DNA of 64,000 bases from Streptomyces durmitorensis (GTDB lineage Bacteria; Actinomycetota; Actinomycetes; Streptomycetales; Streptomycetaceae): contig NZ_CP097289.1 of NCBI RefSeq assembly GCF_023498005.1, positions 3,162,001 to 3,226,000 of the forward strand, in the 5' to 3' direction. Each line of letters opens with the position of its first letter. The stretch's first letter is position 1. Below the pieces are notes generated by a model, which was not told the DNA's origin, did not search any database, and saw only the letters and a program-made list of their open reading frames with translations. Made by a program: the position numbers and the translations under genes. Positions 49,653 to 53,185 of this stretch are shown here, in pieces.

Positions 49653-50444
49653 TCAGCGGGCGCGCCGCGCCGCCCGCACGCTCCACCGGCCCTCGGTGCG
49701 CTCGAGCCGCACCGGGTGGTCGAAGCACTTGCTGATCTGATCGCTGGTCAGTACGTCGTCCACGGCGCCGGAGGCGAGCGCGCGGCCGTCGCGAAGCAGC
49801 AGCGCGTGCGTCGTACCGGCCGGGAGCTCCTCCAGGTGGTGCGTGACCAGGACCGTGGCGAGCTCGGGGTGTGTCTCGCGCAGGGTGTCCAGGCTGTCGA
49901 GGAGGCGTTCGCGGCCCGCGAGGTCCAGCCCGGTGGCCGGTTCGTCGAGCAGCACGAGCCGCGGCCTCGGCATCAGCGAGCGCGCGATCAGGGTCCGTCC
50001 GCGCTCGCCCTGCGAGAGCGTGGGCCAGCGCGCGTCCGTGCGGTGCGCGAGGCCGAGCATGGCGATCAGGCGGTCGGCCTGCTCCTCCTGCTCGGGTGTG
50101 GGGCGCCAACGGGGCAGCGGTTCCACGCTGTTGGTGAGCCCGGTGAGGACGACGTCGCGCACGCGCAGGGGTGAGCGCAGCGGGTGACGCGGGTTCACAT
50201 GACCTACGTACGCGCGGAGTTCGCGCAGGTCGACGCTGCCCAGGCGACGGCCGAGCACCTCGACCGTGCCGTGCGTGGGGTGGGTGACGGCGCCGCAGAG
50301 GCCGAGCAGGGTCGACTTGCCCGCGCCGTTCGCGCCGAGCAGCGCCCAGTGCTCGCCGGGGCGGACGGTGAGGGTGACCTCTTCGAGGATGGGGCGCCCC
50401 TCGCGCACGACGGTGACGGTGTCGGCGTGCAGGACCGGGGTCAT
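49653..50444 (-). CDS. ABC transporter ATP-binding protein
   Basis: 263 residues. Walker A is [11 protein letters not shown], signature [16 protein letters not shown], Walker [13 protein letters not shown], switch THHLEELP. The first domain text [21 protein letters not shown] is usual for ModF/YlmA-like soluble ATPases; no permease is adjacent. The ATG overlaps the leuA stop (ATGA), so expression depends on leuA translation. Possibly a stand-alone ATPase; cargo unknown. Confidence 0.9.
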
Positions 50445-52222
50445 CGGGCGACCGCCGCTCGGTTGACCGCCGCTCGGTTGACCGCCGCGAGCACGGCCTG
50501 CACGGACGCGGTCAGGACCGAGGTGTCCAGGCCCGCGCCCCAGCGCACGGCATCGCCCACCCGGCACTCCGCGTACGCGATGGCCTCGCTGCCGCCGCCC
50601 GCCTCGGTGGCGTGTTCGGAGTAGTCGAGGATGCCGACGGTGATCCCGGCCGCGGCGAGCGCCTCGACGAACGCGGACAGCGGGCCGTTGCCCACGCCTT
50701 CGAAGTCCCCTGTGCGGTCGCCGACTTGGAGGGTGCAGACGAAGCGGTGGGCTCCGTCAGGGGCCCGGTCGGTGGTCCAGGAACTCAGCTCCACGTCGCC
50801 GCCACCGCCCTGTCCCGGTGCGACGTAGGTCGCGCGGAACAGCTCGTACAGCTCCTTGGCGCTCGCCTCCCGCCCGCTGTCGTCGGTGGCCTCCTGCACC
50901 ACGCGCGAGAAGTCGGGCCGCATGCGCTGCGGGAGGTCGAGGCCGTGCCGGGTCTGCAGCAGGTACGCCATTCCACCCTTGCCGGACTGGGAGTTGACCC
51001 GGATGACGGCTTCGTAGGACCGGCCGATGTCGGCGGGATCGATGGGCAGATACGGCACGTCCCACGGCGCCTGGCTCTCCGGGACCCCCAACTCGGCCGC
51101 GCGGCGGGCGTGATGGGCGAATCCCTTGCTGATGGCGTCCTGGTGGGTGCCGGAGAAGGCGGTGTGGACGAGGTCGCCCGCGTACGGGTGGCGGGGGTGC
51201 ACGGGCAGCCGGTTGCAGTGCTCGACGACCTCGCGCACGGCGTCAATGTCGGAGAAGTCGACCATGGGGTCGACGCCTTGGGCGTACAGGTTCAGGGCGA
51301 GGGTCACCAGGTCCACGTTGCCGGTGCGCTCGCCGTTGCCGAAGAGACAGCCCTCGACGCGCTGGGCCCCGGCCAGGACGGCGAGTTCGGCGCAGGCTAC
51401 GCCCGTTCCGCGGTCGTTGTGGGGGTGGACGGAGAGGATGACAGAGCCGCGCCGGGAGAGGTTGCGGTGCAGGTACTCGATCTGGTCGGCGTACACGTTC
51501 GGGGTCGCGATCTCCACGGTCGCGGGCAGGTTGTGGGTGACGGGCCGGTCGGGGCTCGCGTCCCACAGCTCGGTCAGACCGTCGCAGACTTCGAGTACGT
51601 AGTCGGGCTCGGTGAGGTTGAAGGTCTCCGGCGAGAACTGGAACCGGATGTCCGCGCCCGGCCGCGCGTCGGCCAGGCGGGCCATGTGCGTGGCGGCCTC
51701 CGTGACGACATCGTGCACCTGCGCGCGCGACCGGCCGAGCACGACGTCGCGCCAGACGGGCGAGGTGGGGATGTACAGGTGCACGACCGCGCGGGGCAGT
51801 CCCTCGATCGACTCGAAGGTGCGGTCGATGAGTTCGGGCTTGGCGGGGGTGAAGACGACGATGCTGACGTCTTCGGGGAGACCGCCGCTCGCGCTCAGCG
51901 CGGCGAGGTCGCGCACGAAGTCGAAGTCGGCGCGGCTGGCCGACGGATAGCCGACCTCGATCTCCTTGAAGCCCATCGAGACGAGCAGATCGAAGAAGCG
52001 CCGCTTGCGACCGGTGTCCATCGGCTCGGCGAGCGCCTGATTGCCGTCGCGCAGGTCGACGGGGACCCAGAGGGGGGCGCGCTCGATGCGGGAGCTGGGC
52101 CAACTGCGCTGGATCGAGGGGACGTTGACCCGGTCTTGGTACGGGCGGTAGCGGTGGTGCGGCATGGGGCCGGGGCGCTGCGGGTTCCAGTCGTACGCGA
52201 TGTCGTACGCGGTGGCGCTCAT
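50441..52222 (-). CDS. leuA: 2-isopropylmalate synthase
   Basis: 593 residues, full actinobacterial LeuA2-type length. [13 protein letters not shown] is the metal- and acetyl-CoA-site motif, and [19 protein letters not shown] provides the catalytic His pair. The C-terminal regulatory domain ([20 protein letters not shown]) binds leucine for feedback inhibition; the very end contains three AAVNRA-type repeats matching 15-base duplications near 50450-50480. First step of leucine synthesis. Preceded by a leucine-rich leader peptide and hairpins. Confidence 0.97.
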
Positions 52223-52268
52223 CGGAAGCGGTGTCCTTCGGCTCGCGATCGGTTGCCGACCGGCAGCA

Positions 52269-52313
52269 CGGCACCCCGCGGCGGGGTGCCGGTCGCTTCA
52301 GGCCCCGCCGCGG
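52269..52313 (-). promoter_or_regulatory. leuA transcription attenuator: terminator and anti-terminator hairpins
   Basis: On the minus-strand RNA the terminator stem is CGGCACCCCGC / GCGGGGTGCCG (52291-52281 with 52279-52269). Its left arm overlaps 52286-52276, whose sequence CCCCGCCGCGG can instead pair perfectly over 11 bp with CCGCGGCGGGG at 52313-52303 inside the leader peptide's last codons. The two pairings are mutually exclusive, as in classical amino-acid attenuation. A third option pairs 52294-52287 with 52265-52258. No T-tract, as usual for the genus. Confidence 0.8.
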
Positions 52314-52345
52314 CAGCCGAGAAGAAGGAGACCGCAGAAGATCAT
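52298..52345 (-). CDS. leuA leader peptide with four consecutive leucine codons
   Basis: ATG at 52345, TGA at 52300-52298, product MIFCGLLLLGCRGGA. Leu codons CTC-CTT-CTT-CTC occupy 52330-52319. A ribosome waiting there leaves the anti-terminator segment 52313-52303 free; one reaching the stop covers it. There is no Shine-Dalgarno sequence and the predicted transcript start is the A of the ATG, so the peptide is leaderless. Too small for ordinary gene calling. Confidence 0.8.
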   Translation of the reverse strand: MIFCGLLLLGCRGGA

Positions 52346-52381
52346 GGCGGTAGACTAGCCACACCTCAGCTCCTCAGACAA
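52346..52381 (-). promoter_or_regulatory. Sigma-70-type promoter of the leuA leader
   Basis: -35 TTGTCT (52381-52376) and -10 TAGTCT (52357-52352) have an 18-base spacer. The predicted start is position 52345, seven bases past the -10, coinciding with the ATG of the leader peptide. Confidence 0.7.
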
Positions 52382-52398
52382 GTACTCCTCAGACAAGT
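52371..52398. repeat. Direct repeat of TCCTCAGACAAGT at leuA/gntR promoter
   Basis: Two copies start at 52371 and 52386, period 15. The repeat covers the -35 region of the leuA leader promoter and lies between leuA and the divergent GntR gene. Further GAGGAGT/ACTCCTC elements follow to 52446. Candidate operator for the GntR regulator. Confidence 0.6.
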
Positions 52399-52492: not shown

Positions 52493-53185
52493 ATGCCGCT
52501 AGGCTCCCTGCGCCCCAGCCCCCTGGTCGAACAGGCCACCAAGCGCCTGCGCGAGCAGATCACCGGCGGCCACTGGCCCATCGGCAGCAGACTCCCCGGC
52601 GAGACGACCCTCGCCAAGGAGCTCGGCATCGGCCGCTCCACCGTCCGCGAGGCACTGCGCTCCCTCGCCGGAGCCGGTCTCGTCCAGCCGCGGCAGGGCG
52701 CCGGCGTCTTCGTCATCGCGACGCAGCCGGTCGCGGACTGGCCGACGCGGTTGCGGCGGGCGGCGGTGTCGGACGTGTACGAGGTGCGGATGCTGGTGGA
52801 GGTGCAGGCCGCGCGGCTCGCGGCGATGCGGCGCACCGACGAGGACATCACGGCGATGCGCGCCGCGCTCGAAGGCCGCAGGGCCACCGCGTCGGCGAGC
52901 GACGCCGCCTTCATCGACGCCGACATCGCCCTGCACGCGGCGGTCGTGGCGGCGGCCCGCAACCCCGTCCTCACGGATCTCTTCGCGGAGTTCGCCCCCG
53001 TACTCCGGGAGGGCCTGATCAGCCTGCTCGACCTGATCGACGTACGCACGGAGGAGACGAACCACGGGGACGCCGCCCACGCCGCGCTCGTACGGGCCGT
53101 CGAGGCGAGGGACGCCGAGGAAGCGGCACGCGTGGCGCAGGCCGAACTCCAGGACACCCTGGGCCGGTTGCTGGCCCGCGGCTAG
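52493..53185 (+). CDS. GntR-family regulator, FadR subfamily
   Basis: 230 residues, ATG at 52493, AAGG upstream. The winged HTH reads GSRLPGETTLAKELGIGRST then VREALRSLAGAGLVQPRQGA, and the FCD ligand domain follows with the metal-binding histidines IALHAAVVAAARNPVL and NHGDAAHAALVRAVEARD. FadR-type regulators usually sense acyl or sugar acids, and often control a neighbouring MFS transporter; none remains here, only gene remnants. May regulate leuA through the repeats in the shared promoter region. Confidence 0.9.
   Translation: MPLGSLRPSPLVEQATKRLREQITGGHWPIGSRLPGETTLAKELGIGRSTVREALRSLAGAGLVQPRQGAGVFVIATQPVADWPTRLRRAAVSDVYEVRMLVEVQAARLAAMRRTDEDITAMRAALEGRRATASASDAAFIDADIALHAAVVAAARNPVLTDLFAEFAPVLREGLISLLDLIDVRTEETNHGDAAHAALVRAVEARDAEEAARVAQAELQDTLGRLLARG

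Follow-up and report, generated by a model that had tools for sequence, protein, structure and literature searches.

What does the RNA in front of a second leuA gene of Streptomyces durmitorensis do: does it end transcription early, or does it hide and expose the site at which ribosomes begin leuA? The window, i.e., the whole stretch of 64,000 nucleotides analysed here, carries this gene on its minus strand. The first-pass annotation had read the region upstream of the gene as a complete classical attenuator, with a promoter, a leucine-rich leader peptide, a terminator and an antiterminator.

Leader elements before actinobacterial leuA

Elements of this kind are already on record (PMC1262725, PMC8079986). 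The LEU element, as described by Seliverstov in 2005 (PMC1262725), lies before leuA of actinobacteria and comprises a leucine leader, a pseudoknot, a base stem between the Leu codons and the Shine-Dalgarno (SD) sequence, and an alternative hairpin. There, classical attenuation is judged unlikely and a binding protein is favoured, partly from mutation data in S. coelicolor: that work is cited as misfitting classical attenuation, which left the mechanism of the actinobacterial leuA leader open, and the discussion describes the Leu codons as being without influence. In S. lividans TK24 there is a leader of 15 residues before leuA, LeuL1 (MRFGLLLLSCRGEGL), which is reported to be leaderless by RNA-seq and for which the account given states no typical terminator (PMC8079986). 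The leu leaders of Corynebacterium glutamicum and C. diphtheriae are listed as attenuator leaders (PMC4046766, PMC5784534), and have the Leu run before leuA in common with the window. Searches of the open-licence literature found no more recent mechanistic work on this leader of leuA, and the available text of two articles on the ilvB leader (PMC13236596, PMC10272879) makes no mention of leuA. Rfam gave no family match in 2 kb of the window (the best E-value was 3, to an unrelated family) and tRNAs only at eight related loci. The present analysis contributes a second leuA copy, more loci, covariation counts, a terminator control, and a test of folding with a stalled ribosome.

An accessory leuA and its relatives

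The gene (50441..52222, minus strand, ATG at 52222) encodes a divergent second paralogue of 2-isopropylmalate synthase, 593 amino acids long, with the Pfam domains HMGL-like, IPMS_D2 and LeuA_dimer. There are three leuA copies in the genome: the window copy; L082, the canonical leuA of the genome, whose product is 51% identical to the window LeuA and whose leader is MRYGLLLLSCRGEGL; and L083, with 52% identity to the window copy. L083 has no short open reading frame with Leu-Leu in the 500 bases before its mechanically assigned start, and that start is uncertain. One further match in the genome, short and weak (E 1.8e-4), was not counted. All 121 genomes of the same family, this one included, have a LeuA match, and only 26 of the 121 have a copy of the window type, defined by an E-value below 1e-229, a cut of our own choosing. 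Thus, judged by its distribution, the window leuA is an accessory second leuA.

For comparison, the 80 loci among the matches listed whose LeuA is most similar to that of the window (53–80% identity) were taken; about ten of the weakest resemble the canonical leuA type. Leaders are found at 76 of these 80 loci, 74 of them ordinary and two irregular: in L056 the stop stands directly behind the Leu run, and L047 is without the usual stop. The other four loci of the 80 (L001, L027, L051, L052) have no leader. At L001, L051 and L052, leuA seems to begin directly behind the same promoter box, as if the LEU element had been lost there naturally. Alignment A1 has 76 rows (the window, L082 and the 74 ordinary leaders); the loci are kin, so that the shuffle tests and P values below are optimistic.

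Leader, promoter and upstream box

The leader, MIFCGLLLLGCRGGA, is read directly from the sequence as 15 codons from ATG at 52345 to TGA at 52298 (52298..52345, minus strand). Its four successive Leu codons, CTC CTT CTT CTC (52319..52330, minus strand), stand out by their sequence and by the codon bias described below. Similar leaders precede leuA at related loci: the 15-residue peptide with four successive Leu codons that had been proposed for this locus is there to be read, and conservation supports a leaderless, leucine-codon leader well, such leaders being present at 76 of the 80 leuA loci that are closest by protein similarity among those listed. The window leader resembles LeuL1 of S. 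lividans, as described in PMC8079986, in size, position before leuA, probable leaderless start and lack of a typical terminator; however, the leader of this genome nearest to LeuL1 is that of L082, not that of the window copy.

Upstream of the leader, the -10 hexamer TAGTCT, of the form TAnnnT (52352..52357, minus strand), ends 6 bases 5′ of the leader ATG and lies 18 bases from TTGTCT, the -35 hexamer (52381-52376). With leader starts chosen by a script, a few of which may be wrong, a TAnnnT ending 4–8 bases 5′ of the leader start is present in 68/76 leaders, compared with 0/76 in each of four shifted control windows. Because the position of this motif is conserved in the leaders and absent from the controls, transcription probably starts at the leader ATG itself (52345), which would make the transcript leaderless. 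A strict sigma-70 scan of the leader region finds no promoter. The -35/-10 promoter of the first-pass annotation is supported for its -10 hexamer, with its -35 hexamer lying inside a conserved operator-like box.

This box, CTTGTCTGAGGAG, is present in tandem (52370-52397): its proximal copy (52370..52382, minus strand) contains the -35 hexamer, and its distal copy (52385..52397, minus strand) is an exact match. These are the only two exact copies in the genome. The sequence TTGTCTGA occurs in 63/76 leaders, within 80 bases 5′. A divergent gene for a regulator of the GntR/FCD family (52493..53185, plus strand, with a start of our choosing) is a neighbour outside the RNA element, and a divergent homologue is found at 64/80 of the best leuA loci among the matches listed; the conserved box may serve this regulator as its operator. 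Three near copies of the box stand in tandem elsewhere (G000:C1:3322132-3322219), and the box is a perfect palindrome in L021 (CTTGTCTGACAAG) and L026 (GTTGTCTGACAAC).

Two helices that cross

The 5′ arm of the first helix, H1 (52303..52313, minus strand), pairs perfectly over 11 bp with the 3′ arm (52276..52286, minus strand). When the 123 bases between the start of the leader and that of leuA were dinucleotide-shuffled, 4/1000 shuffles held a Watson-Crick stem of at least 11 bp. The second helix, H2, pairs GACCGGC (52288..52294, minus strand) with GCCGGTC (52258..52264, minus strand); in the window this 7-bp core extends to 52295-52287 and 52265-52257. The 11 bp of H1 and the 7-bp core of H2 cross, and thus would form a pseudoknot.

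Both helices are maintained across the 76 rows: 95.9% of H1 and H2 cells are paired, compared with 92.7% in shuffled alignments (0/500) and 36.4–61.1% when the arms are slid by 1–3 columns. Double-sided changes occupy 55 cells, compared with 13.8 in shuffles (sd 3.0; 0/500 shuffles), and are found in 8 pairs, compared with 4.4 (6/500); a 46-row subset gave a similar outcome. One arm of H1 is coding, and Arg-to-His changes in the leader accompany compensating changes downstream, one H1 pair having gone from G-C to A-U in 23 rows. The pairing of 52313-52303 with 52286-52276, which had been called an antiterminator, is thus perfect in the window and kept by compensatory changes in the 76 aligned elements. 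That description contained neither helix H2 nor the pairing between the Leu codons and the SD sequence of leuA. In L056, L249 and L256 the leader stop falls before or inside the H1 5′ arm, the arm itself being retained.

The element in the window is almost certainly a LEU element. It shares with the published one (PMC1262725) the open reading frame with a Leu run, the two-helix pseudoknot, the base stem of Leu codons and SD sequence, and the position before leuA, the published helices being matched to H1 and H2 by description only; it differs in that it lies on a divergent second leuA beside a GntR regulator.

The hairpin read as a terminator

A terminator stem had been placed at 52291-52281 and 52279-52269. 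As given, this leaves a loop of one base; the version which can form, H3, has 9 bp and a 5-base loop (52291-52283 with 52277-52269; 52269..52291, minus strand), and may correspond to the alternative hairpin of PMC1262725. In classical transcription attenuation H3 would terminate, H1 would prevent H3, and a ribosome stalled on the Leu codons would favour H1. The mutual exclusion claimed for the two stems is real in the window, where H1 and H3 cannot coexist, and it counts in favour of classical attenuation. So does the pairing of H3 cells (73.9%, above the 72.6% of shuffles, 10/500 as high, and the 44.0–61.1% of slid versions), part of which presumably follows from the H1 arm. Strong GC stems without a U-tract have also been proposed as terminating in actinobacteria.

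Covariation, however, does not exceed that of shuffles, whether taken as the score (124/500 as high), as pairs with a double change (437/500) or as double-change cells (13 compared with 9.7 shuffled, 55/500; 17–23 in slid versions). A terminator scan of the window leuA leader gave 0 terminator-like sites and no U-tract, although the leuS leader of the same genome (L093), the positive control, gave 3 sites that overlap or lie close together (chief among them 754-775; 0.1 expected) and is followed by a terminator-like site with a U-tract. A run with at least 5 T in 8 bases occurs within the 80 bases that follow the leader stop in 5 of 76 cases. Furthermore, LeuL1 of S. lividans is reported to be without a typical terminator (PMC8079986). 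With no U-tract despite the leuS control and covariation within that of shuffles, H3 was set aside as a terminator, and classical attenuation is unlikely at this locus. Of the two stems put forward, covariation across leuA leaders speaks for H1 (with H2) and not for H3, and what had been called the antiterminator of a classical attenuator is a pseudoknot helix.

Termination might instead depend on Rho, under the control of leader translation. The leader is conserved and has no intrinsic terminator-like site, as this would require, and Rho has been suggested for actinobacterial cys leaders (PMC1262725); nevertheless, such a mechanism has no need of a conserved pseudoknot, and we consider it improbable.

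Leucine codons and the Shine-Dalgarno sequence

In the minimum free energy (MFE) structure of the window RNA (z -2.55), the leuA SD sequence GAAGGA (52234..52239, minus strand) pairs with UCCUUC of the Leu run (52329-52324), forming the base stem H0 with a probability of 1.00. This probability falls to 0.48 when the codons are redrawn from leuA usage, and is 0.97 with all codons CTC. The comparison was extended to 62 loci, after 14 of the 76 were dropped for a leuA start outside 55–110 bases after the leader stop (12 under 55, 2 over 110). The mean probability over these is 0.488 for native codons, compared with 0.205 redrawn (native higher in 45/62) and 0.368 for all-CTC runs (native higher in 43/62). 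The pairing is not uniform: its probability is above 0.3 in 40/62 loci and 0.3 or less in 22/62, in some near zero, and in L082, the canonical leuA, it is 0.47 native compared with 0.57 for redrawn codons.

The duplexes themselves carry no clear signal of this kind. Cognate pairs of Leu run and SD sequence score -6.06 over the 76 loci, which include the 14 with a doubtful leuA start, compared with -5.96 for swapped pairs (sd 0.17; 1312/5000 permutations as low), and -6.41 compared with -6.21 over the 62 loci (sd 0.19; 711/5000 as low); runs drawn from leuA codon usage pair equally well (-6.64 for 76 loci, -6.44 for 62).

Codon choice in the leaders is extreme. CTT accounts for 120/266 Leu codons in leader runs, compared with 23/2971 in leuA coding sequence, and the Leu run closes with CTC or CTT in 77/77 leaders; on this count the choice of Leu codon in the leaders is restricted by more than the residue encoded. 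The leuS leader of Streptomyces, which like the window leader has Leu codons and is reported to be leaderless (PMC1262725, PMC8079986), is also rich in CTT: 12/21 Leu codons in the 7 leaders found at 25 leuS loci. Because leuS leaders are CTT-rich too, the bias is not specific to SD pairing and is weakened as proof of it; stalling at rare codons is, therefore, an alternative reason for the bias.

The bias bears on the proposal of 2005, in which leuA is regulated by a protein bound to the LEU pseudoknot and the leader peptide is incidental. The pseudoknot is indeed kept more evenly from locus to locus than the base stem, and orthologues of a DEAD-box protein were favoured for this part (PMC1262725). 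Extreme codon bias inside the leader, a conserved leaderless start and the replacement of Leu by Val codons before another gene all point, however, to ribosomes reading the leader, and a protein acting with an incidental peptide seems very improbable.

A proposed switch acting on translation

The element more likely hides and exposes the leuA ribosome-binding site than ends transcription early, and it is somewhat more probable than not that this LEU element, on a second leuA, acts by translation attenuation. In the proposed course of events, the transcript would begin at the leader AUG. When leucine is plentiful, ribosomes would translate straight through the run of four Leu codons and come off at UGA; the transcript would then fold into the H1/H2 pseudoknot, with the Leu codons pairing with the leuA SD sequence in the closing base stem, and leuA would be poorly translated. 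When leucyl-tRNA is scarce, a ribosome would stall on the Leu codons, which could then no longer pair, leaving the SD sequence free; H1 and H2 could still form downstream, and leuA would be translated. The leader, its codons, H1, H2 and the lack of a U-tract are read from the sequence; the start site, the folding in the cell, the direction of regulation and the level of control are inferred.

Fold predictions, which leave out the pseudoknot and take an assumed ribosome footprint as a mask, are consistent with such a course. In the window, SD pairing is 1.00 with the RNA free, 0.35–0.47 with a stalled ribosome and 1.00 with a ribosome at the stop codon; the means of the 62 loci are 0.76, 0.53 and 0.74, respectively. 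With the mask at the second Leu codon (Leu2), SD pairing is lower by more than 0.2 in 32/62 loci and higher in 3.

Against translation attenuation stand the comparison of cognate with swapped duplexes and the S. coelicolor mutations, cited as showing the Leu codons to be without influence (PMC1262725). Should these codons double as the anti-SD strand, a change of codon alters two things at once; thus, this double role could explain the S. coelicolor result.

LEU-type leaders before other genes

A model, R1, which includes H1, was trained on 46 rows that include the window and L082, both of which match by construction. In this genome its two strong matches (E 1e-14 and 1.3e-6) each precede a leuA, and the third-best stands at 0.0065; of the 20 matches with E up to 10, 8 of the other 18 were checked and had no leuA-type gene nearby. 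With strict filters, R1 is found in 14/149 genomes of the phylum (E 0.001) and in 41/41 genomes of one family (E 0.01), and it is found in 33/39 genomes of one order (E 0.01).

In a selection of these matches (124 loci, L150-L273), the downstream gene is leuA in 81, leuB in 2, leuC in 2, a gene for a stand-alone domain in 27 and unassigned in 12. NCBIfam identifies leuB at L159 and leuC at L263; the leuB of L165 and the leuC of L212 were assigned by similarity. The leaders before leuB (L159 and L165) are MRHALILRCRGGA and MARQLVILSSRGEFR; before leuC, that of L263 is MRAQRLLLRCRGGASS and the peptide of L212 ends in VLLLSSRDETSF.

The 27 pseudoknot leaders before a stand-alone LeuA regulatory domain are at L166-L168, L229-L232, L234, L235, L237-L251, L253, L256 and L257. 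The domain is 131–183 amino acids long, apart from two proteins made longer by start choice. Two proteins tested had no Pfam match, and two of three weakly matched the C-terminus of a 2-isopropylmalate synthase model; hhalign aligned the domain with the C-terminal domain of LeuA with a probability of 98.7 (E 2.3e-16, 126 columns, 21 vs 3 sequences).

Most of these leaders have an end of the form LVV.RRSGV; in some there is just one Val, and L247 barely shows the pattern. Of the 50 Val codons close to the leader end in 25 leaders, 37 are GTA, L249 and L256 being read out of frame and contributing none; in the domain genes the figure is 0/145. In the literature searched, no description of Val-codon LEU-type leaders before a stand-alone LeuA domain was found. 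Alignment A5 has 27 rows; it omits L246, which had no anchor, and takes in L252. In it, H1 is paired in 99.7% and H2 in 96.8% of cells. The Val codons are predicted to pair with the bases lying between the 3′ arms of H1 and H2: 65% of cells are paired over 6 pairs, of which 4 show double changes, and a seventh pair reaches 44%.

Leu codons before leuA and leuC, and mostly Val codons before the stand-alone domain, argue that ribosomes read the leader. LEU elements may even be a single actinobacterial family of pseudoknot switches acting by translation attenuation, an idea we hold tentatively and rate somewhat below even. In such a family the sensing codons would pair with the region controlled and would follow the target: Leu before both leuA paralogues and leuC, mixed Leu/Ile/Val before leuB, and mostly Val-Val (GTA GTA or GTA GTT) before the stand-alone LeuA regulatory domain. 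If true, one scaffold, fitted with different codons in front of different branched-chain genes, would be a wider RNA switch. At L235, L243 and L244 (3/5 loci scanned), the gene for the stand-alone LeuA domain lies near tRNA-Gly/Cys/Val genes.
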